DNA from: Corallococcus carmarthensis
GTDB lineage: Bacteria; Myxococcota; Myxococcia; Myxococcales; Myxococcaceae
DNA: 54,440 nucleotides
Assembly: GCF_003611695.1 (NCBI RefSeq)
Contig: NZ_RAWE01000048.1
Coordinates: 1-54,440 of the forward strand
Direction: 5' to 3'
Below the pieces are notes generated by a model. That model saw only the letters and a program-made list of their open reading frames with translations, ran no database searches and had not been told where the DNA came from. Shown here one piece after another: positions 3,773 through 14,677 of this stretch (its first letter is position 1; each line of letters starts with the position of its first letter). A program made the position numbers and the translations under genes.

Positions 3773-5305
3773 TCAGCGGGCGATGGCGATGTACTGGAGC
3801 GCGTCGCCCCGCTGGACGCGCAGGAGGATGCTGGCCCCGGCGCTGCCCCGCTCCAGGGCGGCCTTCACCGCGGCGGTGTCCTTCACCCGGCGGCGGTTCA
3901 CCTCCATGACGACGTCGCCCGCGCGAAGGCCGGCCTGCTCCGCCGGGCTGCGCGGCAGCACGCCGGACACGAGCGCGCCCAGGAAGGCCTCGTAGCCCAG
4001 GGGCGCCGCCACCTCCGGCGTCAAATCCCGCAGCACCAGCCCCAGATCATTCGCGGAGCTGCCGCCCCGGTTGGAGAGCCCTTCGGTGGCCTCCTGCGCG
4101 GGCCGGGCGACGAGCCGCACCGCCACCTCCTGGGTGCCGCCGTCGCGCAGCAGCGTCAGCTTCGCCTCCGTGCCCGGCGCCAGGAGCGCCACCTTGCGCA
4201 ACAGCTGGAGGTAGCTGCCAATGGGCCGGCCGTTCACCGCCACCAGCCGGTCCCCGGGACGGATGTGCGCCTGGGCGGCGGGGCTGCCCCGGTAGACGTC
4301 CTTCACCACCGGCGCCGTGGCGGTGGCGTCCGCGCCGTCCTCGTTGATGACGACGCCCAGCCAGCCGCGCTCCAGCTTCCCGTTCTCCCGCAGGTTGGGC
4401 AGCAGGTCCTTGACCAGGTTGATGGGCACCGCGAAGCCAATGCCCTGCCCCTCGCTGATGATGGCGGTGTTCACGCCAATCACCTCCCCCTTCATGTTGA
4501 AGAGCGGGCCGCCGGAGTTGCCGGGGTTGATGAGCGCGTCCGTCTGGATGAAGTCGTCGAACTGGCCCACGCCCAGCACGCGCTCCTTCGCCGAAATCAT
4601 CCCGTGCGCCACCGAGTGGTCCAGGCCGAACGGGTTGCCGATGGCCACCACCCAGTCCCCCACCTCCAGCGCGTCGGAGTCCCCCAGGAACACCGAGCGC
4701 AGCGTCCCCAGCCCGGCGCCATTCAACCGCAGGAGCGCCACGTCCGTGGACGCGTCGCGGCCCACCACGTCGGCGGGGAACTCGCGGCCGTCCGCCAGCC
4801 GCACGGACACCTGCTGCACCGGCACCTCGCGGGGGCCATCCTTTCCGGGCGTGACGCCGGAGCCGGACGGGTTCACCTCCGGGCCCTGCGCGTTGGCCAC
4901 CACGTGGTTGTTGGTGACCACGAGCCCGTCGGGCGTCAGCACGAAGCCGGAGCCGGTGGAGCGCTTCACCGCGCCCACCACCGCGCCGGGCGCCACCGTG
5001 GTGATGTTCACCACGCCCGCCTCCACCGCGCGGATCAGCGGCGCCAGCGACGTGGGGGGCGTGAAGTGGGGCAGGCCCGCGTAGCCCTTGGGACGCTCGC
5101 GCCACAGCGAGGACACGCCCGCGGTGGCAGGGGCGTCCGCCACGGGCAGCGGAGCGGCGAAGAAGGCGATGTGCTCGCGCACCCGGGCCTGGAGCCAGGG
5201 CGTGAGCGGATCCTCGGCGGCTCCCGCCACCGGGGCGAGCGCCACCGCGAAAAGGACGCTGAGCAGTCGGACGGACACGGGGCGGCAGCTTACACGGCGG
5301 GCCAT
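3773..5305 (-). CDS. HtrA/DegP-type periplasmic serine protease
   Basis: A 510-residue protein: signal peptide (about residues 1-30), trypsin-like domain with His134 (TNNHVV), Asp188 (STDVALLR) and Ser264 (NPGNSGGPL), then two PDZ domains (about 310-400 and 420-505). HtrA proteins degrade or refold damaged periplasmic proteins. An insertion of about 25 residues follows the catalytic His. ATG at 5305 is preferred over an in-frame TTG at 5320 because it directly precedes a basic-hydrophobic signal sequence. It is the last gene of the leftward ftsH, sigma1.1-like, grpE group, but a hairpin separates it from grpE, so it may be transcribed on its own. Confidence 0.92.
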   Translation of the reverse strand: MARRVSCRPVSVRLLSVLFAVALAPVAGAAEDPLTPWLQARVREHIAFFAAPLPVADAPATAGVSSLWRERPKGYAGLPHFTPPTSLAPLIRAVEAGVVNITTVAPGAVVGAVKRSTGSGFVLTPDGLVVTNNHVVANAQGPEVNPSGSGVTPGKDGPREVPVQQVSVRLADGREFPADVVGRDASTDVALLRLNGAGLGTLRSVFLGDSDALEVGDWVVAIGNPFGLDHSVAHGMISAKERVLGVGQFDDFIQTDALINPGNSGGPLFNMKGEVIGVNTAIISEGQGIGFAVPINLVKDLLPNLRENGKLERGWLGVVINEDGADATATAPVVKDVYRGSPAAQAHIRPGDRLVAVNGRPIGSYLQLLRKVALLAPGTEAKLTLLRDGGTQEVAVRLVARPAQEATEGLSNRGGSSANDLGLVLRDLTPEVAAPLGYEAFLGALVSGVLPRSPAEQAGLRAGDVVMEVNRRRVKDTAAVKAALERGSAGASILLRVQRGDALQYIAIAR

Positions 5306-5346: not shown

Positions 5347-5377
5347 GCCCGCGCCCCGGATTTCAGGGGACGCGGGC
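5347..5377 (-). terminator. hairpin downstream of grpE
   Basis: GCCCGCG plus CCCC (5347-5357) pair with GGGG, a bulged A, and CGCGGGC (5366-5377). The stem has 11 pairs and lies 13 bases after the grpE stop on the minus strand. No U-tract follows, so it may attenuate rather than fully stop transcription into the protease gene. Confidence 0.45.
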
Positions 5378-5389
5378 ACGAGAGGGACT

Positions 5390-5980
5390 TCAGGCCTGGG
5401 CCGGGGCCACGTACCGGGCGACCTTCACCCGGGCGGGGCGGATGATGCGGTCCTTCAGGCGGTAGCCCGCGCGGAACTCGGCGACCACCTTCTGGTCGTC
5501 GGCCGGCACCGGCGTCACTTCCATGTCCGCCGCCTCGGCGATATTCGGATCATACGGGCGCCCCACCACCTGGAGGCGCTCGATGCCGGTGGCCTGGGCC
5601 TTGGACAGCAGGCTGTCGCGGATCATCCGCACGCCCTGCACCAGGGGGGAGGTGTCCTGCTGGCTGTTGGCCAGCACCAGGTCCAGCTCGTCGATGGCCT
5701 CCAGGAGCGTGCGGGCCACGTTGCCGCGCTCCACGTCCAGCATCCGCTCCCGCTCGCGGGTGAGGCGCTGCTTGAACTCCTCCCGGTCCTTGGTGAGGTC
5801 CTGGAGCCCCCGAGCCAGCTCGTTCACCCGGTTGCGCGCCGCCTCCAGCTCCGCCCGGAGCCGCGCCACCTCGCCATCCTGGGCAGCCTCGGCCTGCGTG
5901 TCGGAGTCCGCGCCTTCCGCCTGGGTGTCGGCGGGGGCCTGCGTCTCCGGGGTCTCATCGCTGCGGGGATTGCCATCCAT
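5390..5980 (-). CDS. grpE: GrpE, nucleotide exchange factor for DnaK
   Basis: A 196-residue protein of normal GrpE length. An acidic, Ala/Thr-rich N-terminal tail (1-35) is followed by a long coiled coil (about 36-110) and a C-terminal beta domain. GrpE signatures include the helix with DLVLAN, the GVRMIRDSLLSKAQATGIER segment and the FRAGYRLKDRIIRPARVKVA end. It releases ADP from DnaK and acts as a heat sensor in the chaperone cycle. dnaK and dnaJ are not adjacent. It has its own well-formed promoter about 50 bases upstream. The start at 5980 is the ATG opening the acidic tail. Confidence 0.96.
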   Translation of the reverse strand: MDGNPRSDETPETQAPADTQAEGADSDTQAEAAQDGEVARLRAELEAARNRVNELARGLQDLTKDREEFKQRLTRERERMLDVERGNVARTLLEAIDELDLVLANSQQDTSPLVQGVRMIRDSLLSKAQATGIERLQVVGRPYDPNIAEAADMEVTPVPADDQKVVAEFRAGYRLKDRIIRPARVKVARYVAPAQA

Positions 5981-6031
5981 TGTCGAACCTGCGCCAGGGG
6001 TTGGAAGAAGCGGACCTCGGTGAGCGGCGCG

Positions 6032-6059
6032 AACCTAACCGCGAGGGAGGCCCTGTCAA
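6032..6059 (-). promoter_or_regulatory. sigma-70-type promoter of grpE
   Basis: On the minus strand TTGACA (6054-6059), a perfect -35, is followed after 16 bases by TAGGTT (6032-6037). Transcription would begin near 6025, about 45 bases before the grpE start. It nearly abuts the stop codon of the preceding gene, whose last base is 6065. Confidence 0.6.
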
Positions 6060-6064
6060 CGCGC

Positions 6065-6313
6065 CTAGTGGTTGGAGGGGGCCGCGGGCGGCGCCTCCGC
6101 CATGAAGCCGTGATCCACCTGCCCCGTCACCTCGTCGATGATCTCCACCTGGGCGGCGCGCAGGGAGTAGTAGAGGAGCCACCGCTCGGCGGCCGTCAGC
6201 GTCCCCGGGGGCAGCGCCTCCTCGATCTCCTGTACCGTGAGCCGGCCGTCCTTCAGGCCCTTGGCGAACAATGCTTTCCGCGCGACGTAGCTCTTCCCAA
6301 TCCGGTTCTCCAC
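6065..6313 (-). CDS. stand-alone sigma-70 region 1.1-like protein
   Basis: An 82-residue protein. Residues 10-65 match the pattern of sigma-70 region 1.1 (a helix, then GRLTVQEIEEALPPGTLTAA, a helix, then VEIIDEVTG), the N-terminal autoinhibitory domain of primary sigma factors. No other sigma region is present. I chose GTG at 6313 because AAGGAGG sits 7 bases upstream; the longer ATG frame at 6352 starts inside a terminator-like hairpin. It lies between ftsH and grpE on the same strand. A free region 1.1 could mimic DNA in the RNA polymerase cleft or bind sigma, which is inference. Fold similarity is judged by eye from pattern only. Confidence 0.7.
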   Translation of the reverse strand: MENRIGKSYVARKALFAKGLKDGRLTVQEIEEALPPGTLTAAERWLLYYSLRAAQVEIIDEVTGQVDHGFMAEAPPAAPSNH

Positions 6314-6343
6314 GGCGACGCCTCCTTGTCGTTGGAAAGTAAT

Positions 6344-6389
6344 TTCGCCCACCGGTCACCGCAGGCTGGCGGTGGATCCGGTGGGCGAA
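6344..6389 (-). terminator. long hairpin between ftsH and the sigma 1.1-like gene
   Basis: TTCGCCCACCGG (6344-6355) pairs perfectly with CCGGTGGGCGAA (6378-6389), and inside it CACCGC pairs with GCGGTG (6357-6362 with 6369-6374). It lies 30 bases after the ftsH stop. The minus-strand sequence after it (ATTACTTTCC) is only partly U-rich, so it could be a terminator or an attenuator controlling the next gene. Confidence 0.55.
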
Positions 6390-6418
6390 GGGCTGCCCGG
6401 AGGGCAGGCAGGCTCAGC

Positions 6419-8473
6419 TCAAGAGTCGAGCTTGCCTTCAGCGTGCTGCGTGGGCGGGACGGCCGGCTCGGACTCCGTGCCCCCCACGGGGTGCGCGGAG
6501 ATGACCGTGCGGGCCTCGGGGTGGAGCAGGCCGCGCTGCGCCTGCACCTTGGGCCCCAGGATGGTGATCATCGCCTCCTCCTCGATGACCTCCGTCGCCA
6601 GGAGCCGCGCCGCCAGGGCCTCCACCTTCTCGCGGTTGACGTTGAGGACCTCCCGGGCGCGGTCGAGCGCCTCGGAGACCATCTTGCGGACCTCTTCGTC
6701 GATCATCCGCGCCGTCTGCTCGGAGTAGCTGCGCGTCTCCGGCAGGCCCGCGGAACGCAAGAAGCCCGGTCCCTGTTCACCGCTCAGCGCCACCGGACCC
6801 AGCGTGCTCATGCCGTAGTCGCGGACCATCATCTTGGCGATCTCCGTCGCCTGCTTGATGTCGTTGGACGCGCCGGTGGACACCTCGCCGATGAAGATCT
6901 CCTCCGCCGCGCGGCCGCCCATCATGCCCGCCATCTTGTCGCGCAGTTCGTCCAGCGACATGAGGTAGCGGTCCTCCAGGGGCAGCGACATGGTGTAGCC
7001 CAGCGCCGCCAGGCCTCGCGGGATGATGGACACCTTCGTCACCCGCTCGGCGTAGGGCAGCATCCAGCCCACCACCGCGTGGCCCGCCTCGTGGTGCGCG
7101 ACGATCTCCTTCTCGCGCTCGTTCATGCGGCGGTTCTTCTTCTCCAGACCCGCCACCACGCGCTCGATGGCCTCCTCGAAGTCCGCCCGCATCACCGCGT
7201 CGCGGTTCTTGCGCGCGGCGAGCAGCGCCGCCTCGTTCACCACGTTGGCCAGGTCCGCGCCGGCGAAGCCCGGCGTGCGCGAGGCGATCTGCTTGAGGTC
7301 CACGTCCTGGCCCAGCTTCACGCCCTTGGCGTGGATCTCCAGGACCCGCTCACGGCCGCGCTTGTCCGGACGGTCCACCAGCACCTGCCGGTCGAAGCGG
7401 CCCGGGCGCATCAGCGCGCTGTCCAGAATCTCCGGACGGTTCGTCGCCGCCAGGATGATGAGGCCCGCGCGGCTGTCGAAGCCGTCCATCTCCGCGAGCA
7501 GCTGGTTGAGCGTCTGCTCGCGCTCGTCATGGCCGCCGGCCACGCCCGAGTTGCGGCTCTTGCCGATGGCGTCCAGCTCGTCGATGAAGATGATGCACGG
7601 CGCCTTCGCGGTGGCCTGGGCGAAGAGGTCGCGGACACGGGCCGCGCCGACGCCCACGAACATCTCCACGAACTCCGAACCGGACAGGTTGAAGAAGGGC
7701 ACGCCCGCTTCACCCGCCACGGCCCGGGCCAGCAGCGTCTTGCCCGTGCCCGGAGGGCCCACGAGCAGCACGCCCTTGGGGATGCGGCCACCCAGACGGC
7801 GGAACTTCTCCGGCGTCTTGAGGAACTCGACGATCTCGCGGAGCTCGTCCACGGCCTCGTCCACGCCAGCCACGTCCTTGAAGCCCACGCCGGTGTCGTT
7901 TTCCGCCTGCACCTTCGCGCGCGTCTTGCCAAAGGACATGACGCTCTGCGGACCCTGGCCCATGCCGCCGGACATCCGGCGCATCATGAAGCTCCAGAAG
8001 AGGATGAGCAGGCCCATGGGGATGAGCCAGATCCACAACACTTCACTGAAGCTCGACTGCGGGACGGCCTCGAACTGGATGCCCTTCTGCTCCAGCAGGG
8101 GCACCAGGCCCTCGTCACCGGGGACGCGGTAGGCCATCCACGGCAGGGCGCTGGGCTCGCTGCGCAGGGTGCCGCGCTCGCCCGGAGGCGGCTGGGCATT
8201 GTCCTTGAGGAAGCCCTTCACCCACTCATTGGAGATCTGCACACGGCTGAACTGGTTGTTCTCCACCGCGTCGCGCAGTTGGCTGTACGACACCCGGCGC
8301 ACGCCCGCGTCCTGAAACACGTTCCGGAACAGCAGGAACCCCAGGACGAGCAGGAGGATGTAGCCCAGTGGTGAGCCGAACTTGAACCCACCTTTCGTGG
8401 GTGTTGGCTTGTCGCTCTTCTTTCCGCGCGGGCCCATCCCCGGCGGCAGGTCCTGTGGCTTCATCGTCGGCAC
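6419..8473 (-). CDS. ftsH: ATP-dependent zinc metalloprotease FtsH (copy 1 in window)
   Basis: A 684-residue protein: cytosolic Lys/Pro-rich N-tail, transmembrane helix (about 32-50), periplasmic domain, second helix ([18 protein letters not shown]), AAA+ domain with [19 protein letters not shown] and the second region of homology, then the M41 protease with HHEAGH as zinc site. It degrades membrane and regulatory proteins. GTG at 8473 has GGAGGG 5 bases upstream; ATG at 8464 is the alternative. It differs from the second window copy by a longer N-tail and a longer periplasmic segment, so it is a paralogue rather than a recent duplicate. A 21-bp near-palindrome lies just upstream. Confidence 0.95.
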
Positions 8474-12837: not shown

Positions 12838-14592
12838 TCAGTAGGCGCGGAGGATCTTCAGACGCCAACCCTGCGGCCACAGCTCGTCGTAGCGGCCGCG
12901 GTAGCCGCTGTAGTCCGAGTCGTACCACTGCGACTCGCCCGCGGTGCTCGGCCGCCACACCGCCGTGTAGAGCGTCTGCCCGTTCACCACGAACGGCTCC
13001 AGCAGCTTCAGGCGCCAGCCCTGCGGCCACAGCGAGTCATACGTCGCGCGGTAGGAGGCGTACGTGACGCCATACACCTGCAGCTCGCCCTCGGTGCTCG
13101 GGCGCCACACGGCCGTGTAGTACGTCTGCCCGTTCACCACGTACGGCTGGAGCAGCTTCAGGCGCCAGCCCTGCGGCCAGAGCGAGTCGTACGTCGCGCG
13201 GTACGACGCATACGTGGCGCCGTAGAGCTGGAGCTCGCCCTCGGTGCTCGGGCGCCACACGGCCGTGTAGTACGTCTGTCCGCTCACCACGTACGGCTGG
13301 AGGATCTTCAGGCGCCAGCCCTGCGGCCACAGCTCGTCGTACTTCGCGCGGAAGGCCGTGTACGAGGCGCCGTAGAGCTGGAGCTCGCCCTCGGTGCCCG
13401 GGCGCCAGACGGCGTTGTAGAGCACCTGCGTTCCCACCACGTACGGCTGCAGCGTGTGCAGGCGCCAGCCCTGCGACCAGAGCTGATCATACTTCTCGCG
13501 GTAGTCCGCGTAGGTGCGGGCGTAGGCCTGGATCTCCGACTGCGTGCCCGGCTCCCACACCGCCGTGAAGGTGCCCGGGAGGTTGGGGACGCCCACGTCC
13601 GTGTACTGGGTGATGCGGCACGTGGACGTGTTGGGCAGCGGCACCTCATTGCGGCGCAGCGCGCAGGCGCGGATGGCGGCGGCGGCGCTCGCGTTGTCCG
13701 CGTCGTAGTACGTGGAACCCGGCGTCATCCAGATGGGCGACGCGGGCGAGTGCGGGTTCTTCGCCACCTCCGACGTCGCGGTCGCGCGGATGCCCAGGTC
13801 CAGCGCCACGCCGTCGTCGTAGGTCACCTGGTTGTTCGTGCCCATGCGGTGGCAGCCCAGGCACACGTTGCCGGCGACCTCCACCTTGTAGGCCTTCCAC
13901 GTCGCGAAGTCGGCGCCGATGAAGCGGTAGGGCTGGTCGCGGTTGAAGCCGAAGTCGCCCGCGCCCGGCAGCTTGTTCACGCCGGTGACCTGCGTCAGGT
14001 ACGGCGAGCGGACGATGGCCCCGTTGTCATGGCAGCGCACGCAGCGGATGGACGCCGTGTCCGCGGGCGTCTTCCAGCTCCACGCGCCCGTGCCCTTGGA
14101 AGGCGCCTTCACGTCCGCGCCGTAGAGGGTGCCCAGCGCCTGGTAGAAGCAGGTGGCGCCGTTCTTCTTGTTCGTCTGGATGACGGCGATGTCGCCGTAG
14201 TAGTTCGCCGCGTTCCCCTGCTTGCGGCAGTGCGCGACGATGGACACGTCCGCCGTGTCCTTCAGCACCTGGAAGCGGCTGCCCGGATCACACTGCTGGT
14301 TGAGCCGGTTGGGCCGGTCACACTTGCCGTTGACGTGATTCGTCGTGGGCACCACCGTGCCCAGCTCGCAGTTGAAGTCCGGCACCGTCGCGCCGATGGC
14401 CGCGTCACACTTGGCCGCGTACTGCTCCAGCGTGTCCGACAGCGCCGACGTCTGCTGGGCGAGGACGGGCTCATCGGAGGACGACACGAGCCGGTGCTCG
14501 GCGTTCATTCCAGTGCCATCACCACACGCGCCCAGCCCGGCCGTGACGGCCAGGCCCAGCAGGGCCCACACCGCACGCAACGAAGTCTTCAT
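12838..14592 (-). CDS. lipoprotein with two c-type heme sites and five BTRD1-like repeats
   Basis: A 584-residue protein. Residues 1-23 form a lipoprotein signal (LGLAVTAGLGAC). The central part has two CxxCH heme-binding motifs, CVRCH and CLGCH, and many Cys, consistent with a cytochrome c-like domain outside the inner membrane. From about residue 340, five tandem units of about 50 residues follow, each with AVWRPxTxGE, YxxxYD and LWPQGWRL; this pattern is the bacterial tandem repeat domain 1 type (polyglycine hydrolase-like repeat). ATG at 14592 starts the signal peptide and has GAGAGG 8 bases upstream. Electron transfer is possible but no partner is evident; the repeats may bind carbohydrate or peptide (inference). 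Confidence 0.82.
   Translation of the reverse strand: MKTSLRAVWALLGLAVTAGLGACGDGTGMNAEHRLVSSSDEPVLAQQTSALSDTLEQYAAKCDAAIGATVPDFNCELGTVVPTTNHVNGKCDRPNRLNQQCDPGSRFQVLKDTADVSIVAHCRKQGNAANYYGDIAVIQTNKKNGATCFYQALGTLYGADVKAPSKGTGAWSWKTPADTASIRCVRCHDNGAIVRSPYLTQVTGVNKLPGAGDFGFNRDQPYRFIGADFATWKAYKVEVAGNVCLGCHRMGTNNQVTYDDGVALDLGIRATATSEVAKNPHSPASPIWMTPGSTYYDADNASAAAAIRACALRRNEVPLPNTSTCRITQYTDVGVPNLPGTFTAVWEPGTQSEIQAYARTYADYREKYDQLWSQGWRLHTLQPYVVGTQVLYNAVWRPGTEGELQLYGASYTAFRAKYDELWPQGWRLKILQPYVVSGQTYYTAVWRPSTEGELQLYGATYASYRATYDSLWPQGWRLKLLQPYVVNGQTYYTAVWRPSTEGELQVYGVTYASYRATYDSLWPQGWRLKLLEPFVVNGQTLYTAVWRPSTAGESQWYDSDYSGYRGRYDELWPQGWRLKILRAY
12841..13569 (-). repeat. five tandem about 150-bp coding repeats (BTRD1-like units)
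   Basis: Five in-frame copies of 150, 150, 150, 150 and about 129 bases. Copies 3 and 4 are the most alike (TAVWRPSTEGELQ, then YASYRATYDSLWPQGWRLKL in both). The first copy is the most diverged (AVWEPGTQSE). Near-identity of the middle copies points to recent duplication or gene conversion. Confidence 0.88.
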
Positions 14593-14677
14593 GACGAATG
14601 CCTCTCGCTTCCCTGGAGACACGGCGACGACGCGCGCGTGGAGGCATGCCTTCCGTCAGCCGACGGCTGGACCTGTG

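Follow-up and report, generated by a model that had tools for sequence, protein, structure and literature searches.

S11, an 82-amino acid protein encoded between ftsH and grpE in Corallococcus carmarthensis, is a real free-standing homologue of region 1.1 of the sigma-70 factors, as seen from both its sequence profile and its predicted fold. None of the individual lines of homology is overwhelming singly, and all of them indicate the same domain.

The S11 Locus

The window, which is the whole stretch of 54,440 nucleotides analyzed (contig NZ_RAWE01000048.1, from a genome of 10.8 Mb), contains the 82-codon reading frame between ftsH and grpE as described in the initial annotation, and the close relatives of the locus belong to Corallococcus and Myxococcus. 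The elements referred to below are arranged as follows.

6419-8470, (-) strand: ftsH-A, the FtsH whose clade is inherited together with S11, and probable orthologue of FtsHD (MXAN_4333)
6344-6389, (-) strand: hairpin in the ftsH-S11 spacer, followed by GAAATTA(C/T)(T/C)TT or similar at about 6336-6346
6321-6327, (-) strand: AAGGAGG ribosome-binding site of S11, seven bases upstream of the GTG
6065-6313, (-) strand: S11 (the name used here), 82 amino acids, GTG start at 6313 and stop at 6065
6032-6059, (-) strand: promoter-like TTGACA-N16-TAGGTT before grpE and downstream of S11, a loose pattern
5390-5980, (-) strand: grpE, probable orthologue of MXAN_4331
3773-5305, (-) strand: htrA/degP-type protease gene, conserved in the same block

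Closely related loci have an identical or similar purine box ahead of the S11 start. Elsewhere in the window, positions 12838-14622 on the (-) strand encode a protein in which the sequence type VWRPSTEGELQ.YG..Y..YR..YD.LWPQGWRL is repeated about five times.

The hairpin noted upstream of S11 proved to be real, with 13 consensus pairs of which four carry two-sided compensatory changes among 17 sequences ranging from Corallococcus to Archangium and including Myxococcus. The GAAATTA that follows it is invariant in the relatives compared, and the hairpin pattern occurs in a single copy in the genome. The hairpin is visible by eye in the closer loci and not in the more distant ones compared. A simple scan found no U-tract terminator between ftsH and S11. 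The grpE promoter that had been proposed downstream of S11 stands as a loose pattern only, present in all 16 spacers compared (TTGACA...TTA(G/C)GTT in 15 and ...TTAGCTT in locus L029), and a stricter sigma-70 scan of positions 5900-6500 returned no promoter. Given the lack of a U-tract terminator and the loose promoter pattern placed downstream of S11, S11 may be read together with ftsH through the hairpin, and grpE may be able to start separately.

Homology with the Primary Sigma Factor

The initial annotation held that S11 resembles only region 1.1 of a primary sigma factor, and the profile search against that family bears this out. The Pfam family PF03979 (Sigma70_r1_1) matches S11 over residues 13-67 with 25.4 bits against a curated cut-off of 22.5 bits, and it is the sole Pfam family matching the chain at E ≤ 1, with regions 1.2, 2, 3, and 4 of primary sigma-70 being absent. 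Across the whole genome at E ≤ 0.001 the family matches only RpoD (84.6 bits) and S11 (24.7 bits), both above the cut-off, so RpoD has kept its own region 1.1. Among 18 members of the S11 family 17 match PF03979 at E ≤ 0.1; L074, a distant member, falls under the cut-off with 20.0 bits. DUF2835 is weakly matched by three of the same 18 members (best E value 0.004), and a search of S11 against NCBIfam gave only a sub-threshold match to MzaA (10.8 of 800 bits).

Comparison in both directions leads to the same domain. Profile-profile alignment of S11 with 61 RpoD regions 1.1 gives a probability of 95.7% over 59 columns. A model built from these 61 RpoD regions only scores all 63 distinct S11 sequences at 9.9-28.7 bits, whereas 12,600 shuffled copies reach at most 7.1 bits with the same model, below every S11 score. 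In the reverse direction, the S11 profile A1, composed of 16 orthologues and run over 195 genomes of the phylum, gives weak matches of about 18-24 bits in addition to its strong ones (E < 1e-15). The 15 weak-match loci examined, taken from a longer list, all encode RpoD, with the match starting at RpoD residues 133-139 in region 1.1. A further S11 profile (A3) matches SigA among the PDB sequences with an E value of 0.0076.

The predicted fold, which could have spoken against the assignment, agrees with region 1.1 for both family members modelled. AlphaFold models of the window S11 and of a distant family member have pLDDT values of 80.5 and 81.6, respectively, and both show the order helix-strand-helix-helix-strand. 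A Foldseek search of the PDB with the window model places region 1.1 of Bacillus subtilis SigA (9a58, itself an integrative model, and 5mww) and Thermotoga maritima 2k6x at ranks 1-3, with weak E values of 0.15-1.7. With the distant-member model eight of nine matches fall on SigA entries or on chains F/L of Escherichia coli holoenzyme entries, which we take to be sigma-70, again with weak E values of at least 0.15. In the VIA comparison the window model gives Z scores of 8.1 (rmsd 3.1 over 60) and 7.9 (rmsd 4.1 over 66) with the next row at 2.7, and the distant-member model gives Z scores from 7.4 to 4.8 over seven rows. The C terminus of S11 consists of about 20 residues modelled at low confidence and contains no acidic run.

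Loss of Acidity and the Conserved Residues

The S11 core differs in charge from its counterpart in RpoD. The median net charge of residues 9-61 is 0 (-2 to +4, n = 63) compared with -11 (-12 to -5, n = 61) for the 59 columns of RpoD region 1.1; residues 7-58 of E. coli RpoD carry -9. The suggestion that the free copy acts as a DNA mimic is therefore rejected, as the core lacks the acidity of region 1.1. The N-terminal half of S11 is basic (residues 4-26, median +6, n = 63), and the acidic positions of helix 3 are replaced by a nearly invariant RWLLYYSL, with Trp-45 and Leu-46 aligned opposite Asp-Asp of RpoD and Tyr-49 opposite a serine. RpoD region 1.1 has the same median charge, -11, in genomes that carry S11 and in those that lack it.

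For conservation and charge, 63 distinct S11 sequences were kept at E ≤ 1e-10. Arg-12, Lys-13, Leu-15, Phe-16, Leu-25, Glu-29, Arg-44, Trp-45, Leu-46, Leu-47, Ser-50, and Leu-51 are invariant in all 63, and tyrosine is present at position 48 in 57 and at position 49 in 59 of them. The pattern suggests an exposed aromatic/basic face, and this face would therefore form a putative protein interface. The tails are variable in sequence, and histidine is the last residue in 32 of 50 distinct C termini.

Compared with Myxococcus xanthus over 73 codons, there are 26 synonymous and three non-synonymous differences and none at codon position 2, and S11 is, judging from such sequence comparison, under purifying selection. 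That S11 could be a spurious reading frame, of which high-GC DNA yields many by chance, or could resemble region 1.1 fortuitously has a vanishingly small probability and is ruled out by the purifying selection, the wide conservation, the agreement of profile and fold, and the shuffle control.

Homologues were found in related genomes. The profile search (E < 1e-15) detects S11 in 103 of 145 genomes of the order to which the window belongs and in none of 50 other genomes of the phylum. A separate scan covered 84,980 species genomes with peptide patterns taken from a single sequence, AERWLLYY included, and confirmed 40 of 203 stretches; with these single-sequence patterns none was confirmed outside Myxococcota or Deltaproteobacteria/Proteobacteria MAGs except L017. 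This exception is recorded as Comamonas sp. KCTC 72670, carries the locus at about 90% protein identity, and is probably a misnamed myxobacterial assembly. The pattern scan favors loci with AERWLLYY and so inflates the conservation of this motif in those loci; the phylum profile search is independent of the pattern, although its profile was built from such loci. A phage or plasmid origin was considered and rejected, with no S11 relative in viral contigs (profile A1), PHROGs, or plasmids (tblastn). Among the titles listed as matches in the open-access literature none concerns a stand-alone region 1.1 protein, and a full-text search of the open-access literature gave no mention of MXAN_4332. S11 is a small, strongly conserved, and apparently unstudied myxobacterial protein.

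Inheritance with One FtsH Clade

In the 40 contigs from the species-wide scan, FtsH is located upstream of S11 on the same strand in all 40, GrpE is detected in 33, and HtrA in 39. The proposed order of ftsH, small gene, and grpE accordingly holds for its ftsH-S11 part, whereas the grpE part does not hold throughout; in locus L032 htrA can open at position 5361, 112 bases past the S11 end at 5249, which leaves no room for grpE. The stress gene group in which S11 had been placed is likewise seen as a block at the locus, but the presence of S11 tracks the FtsH-A clade and not the whole group.

The FtsH beside S11 forms a distinct clade (24 rows, SH-aLRT 99, in a quick tree calculated without bootstrap). 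FtsH-A was defined by at least 735 bits against the window FtsH, the matches concerned having at least 60% identity, with the next score being 641 among the matches listed. Two partial matches covering the AAA domain only, at 62-63% identity, belong to the other FtsH type, to which they are 93% and 82% identical. More than one FtsH lineage is present in Myxococcota; the one linked to S11 is additional and has apparently undergone repeated loss.

Among the 145 genomes of the order, and counting FtsH-A among the matches listed, 101 have S11 with FtsH-A, two have S11 only, one has FtsH-A only, and 41 have neither, so that detection of the two agrees in 142 of 145. The exceptions are G020, in which S11 is present and the FtsH match is partial, G026, and G140. 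In five of the 41 genomes with neither (G050, G106, G142, G143, and G147) no FtsH is detected at E 1e-60, and only partial matches are seen in some others, which indicates that incomplete assemblies contribute to this class. Outside the order, G164 has an FtsH-A-like protein on a contig that stops just past the gene, with S11 not detected.

An RpoD tree of 61 rows, chosen to cover genera with and without S11 and omitting many near-identical Myxococcaceae, needs eight changes in S11, at least six of them forced by well supported branches. In seven independent pairs differing in FtsH-A, S11 changes the same way in five to six and the opposite way in none (median sign-test p 0.0625, with adjacency as a confounding factor); in six independent pairs differing in S11, FtsH-A changes the same way in four to five and the opposite way in none, with adjacency again confounding. 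As S11 and ftsH-A are usually adjacent, part of their co-loss may consist of single block deletions.

Individual genomes illustrate several routes by which the pair has been altered. The 18 HtrA loci of genomes lacking S11, some of which are short stretches, show neither S11 nor an intact FtsH-A, and GrpE still adjoins HtrA in 14 of them; those without GrpE are G044 (a contig edge), G158, G159, and G052. The GrpE-HtrA pair often outlasts the loss of S11 and FtsH-A. A clean block deletion is observed in G052, where the gap between MutT and HtrA is about 280 bp and the intervening genes are gone; MutT (at least 55% identity) occurs somewhere in 20 of 25 S11-negative genomes tested and was seen at the old locus in G052 only. 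In G056 and G155 S11 and FtsH-A are unlinked and both are retained. G140 has an intact FtsH-A frame directly before GrpE and no S11, which suggests that S11 is dispensable for keeping FtsH-A. In its sister G141 S11 was not found and an FtsH-A remnant with its middle deleted lies directly before grpE (L205, 3494-3723, (-) strand). G026 carries a diverged S11 (E value 7e-20) between MutT and HtrA, and FtsH-A was not found. S11 is also diverged in G160 (E value 4e-20) with FtsH-A present, and divergence of S11 alone is consequently no proof.

Discussion

Region 1.1 is known as the gatekeeper built into the primary sigma factor. S11 shares its profile and its best structural matches with region 1.1 of group-1 sigma-70 proteins (B. 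subtilis SigA, 5MWW; T. maritima RpoD, 2K6X; E. coli sigma-70), and differs from them in being a stand-alone protein of 82 amino acids that is neutral, has the conserved RWLLYYSL and ARKxLF motifs, and is fixed beside ftsH. The delta subunit of RNA polymerase (RpoE, HARE-HTH, PF05066) is, according to PMC7749165 and PMC10141391, similarly a small free-standing protein with a domain resembling sigma region 1.1. PMC7749165 describes a charge of -47 over residues 91-173 of B. subtilis delta and a binding site for its N-terminal domain on the polymerase surface between the beta' shelf and jaw. Unlike delta, S11 has no PF05066 match at E values up to 1 and no acidic C-terminal region, and it comes from a different phylum; the identification of S11 as a delta subunit was rejected, both the PF05066 domain and the long acidic disordered C-terminal region being missing. 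Delta structures are absent from the Foldseek matches, an absence that excludes nothing. The one PF05066 match of the genome lies elsewhere, as a HARE-HTH domain in a 754-amino acid open frame (L231; G000 C239:565-783). The stand-alone region 1.1 is a new form of a known domain, and delta is its nearest functional precedent.

The reading we favor, while holding it tentatively and at somewhat less than even confidence, is that S11 is a sigma-1.1 copy turned into a dedicated partner of the FtsHD-type FtsH. S11 would have diverged from region 1.1 of the primary sigma factor as a solitary copy and retained the small winged-helix-like fold, with the acidic positions swapped for the invariant or nearly invariant basic and aromatic set of Arg-12, Lys-13, Arg-44, Trp-45, Leu-46, Tyr-48, and Tyr-49. 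With this motif presumably exposed on the surface, S11 could be soluble and act as an adaptor or regulator, its basic/aromatic face binding the FtsH hexamer or the clients of FtsH, and binding would set the timing at which a putative client is degraded, control in this direction being likewise conjectural. The reading rests on the observed homology, the predicted fold, the conservation, the lost acidity, the fixed position after FtsH-A, and the co-occurrence with the FtsH-A clade, and it is favored over others by the co-inheritance and the neighborhood, an argument that is weakened by the adjacency of S11 and ftsH-A. Adaptors and modulators of FtsH include LapB/YciM, SpoVM, and HflKC, which are like S11 in being proteins genetically tied to one FtsH; to our knowledge none of them has the sigma-1.1 fold.

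Against an FtsHD partner it can be said that RNA polymerase is the more natural target for a sigma-factor domain, and the homology of S11 to region 1.1 in sequence and fold favors the main rival explanation, possible although doubtful in our estimation, in which S11 is a delta-like accessory of RNA polymerase. It would bind the polymerase surface or compete with region 1.1 of SigA and so shift promoter or sigma choice under stress, with FtsH-A degrading S11 to control its amount; E. coli FtsH controls the amount of sigma-32 by degradation. The S11 gene lies inside a heat-shock/envelope stress block, grpE of M. xanthus being heat-induced according to PMC11019930, and the N-terminal domain of delta offers an earlier example of a separate 1.1-like fold bound to the enzyme (PMC7749165). 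The loss of acidity (median 0 compared with -11) and the lack of a long acidic tail like that of delta argue against such a role, although polymerase binding by a non-acidic 1.1 fold would still be feasible, as the site of the delta N-terminal domain lies outside the channel (PMC7749165). The distribution also counts against it, in that the presence of S11 follows FtsH-A while RpoD is found with and without S11, and the charge of RpoD region 1.1 is equal in both groups.

That S11 and FtsH-A are mere neighbors lost by block deletion, with S11 having an unrelated housekeeping role, is unlikely. The two are adjacent in most loci and the deletion in G052 is of this kind, but the S11-FtsH order also holds in some lineages whose spacer lacks grpE, G056 and G155 keep both genes though these are unlinked, and a stand-alone role predicts more genomes having S11 without FtsH-A than the two of 103 seen, with FtsH-A counted among the matches listed. 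Slightly less probable still is a regulator that binds DNA or RNA, perhaps its own leader hairpin, through the basic N-terminal half and the winged-helix-like fold. The net charge of +6 in residues 4-26 (median of 63) and the hairpin with compensatory changes and invariant GAAATTA just upstream, single in the genome, are consistent with such binding. The most conserved residues of helix 3 are aromatic or hydrophobic (RWLLYYSL), which would be unlike a DNA-reading helix, and the hairpin is, by eye, limited to the closer loci among those compared, whereas S11 is older. We know of no DNA binding by region 1.1.

For the proposed partnership with FtsH-A, M. xanthus offers a connection to a described system. 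FtsHD and PopD are reportedly treated by Konovalova et al. in 2012. In M. xanthus DK1622 MXAN_4333 is FtsHD, which according to PMC4320627 is important for the ppGpp-regulated degradation of PopD, and this degradation frees PopC and leads to the C-signal. MXAN_4331 is a heat-induced GrpE (PMC11019930). A single number is free between MXAN_4333 and MXAN_4331, and the M. xanthus locus (L015) has the matching order FtsH-S11-GrpE; S11 would therefore correspond to MXAN_4332 and FtsH-A to FtsHD, and the PopD protease appears to be the FtsH beside S11.

One wider scenario, which we consider improbable as a whole, is that an early ancestor of the order duplicated a module of its primary sigma factor and adapted the copy as a cofactor of the second FtsH (FtsHD). 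Membrane-protease activity would thereby be coupled to the state of transcription or to the stringent response, and the cofactor could supply the missing (p)ppGpp relay to the FtsHD-dependent breakdown of PopD that starts C-signalling in M. xanthus. A solitary conserved region 1.1 that has lost its acidity and accompanies a single protease in evolution is a domain put to a new use, and suggests the re-use of a transcription-factor module as a partner of protein breakdown. If the reading of S11 as a partner of FtsH-A is true, S11 would be a concrete candidate for the link between ppGpp and FtsHD in M. xanthus.
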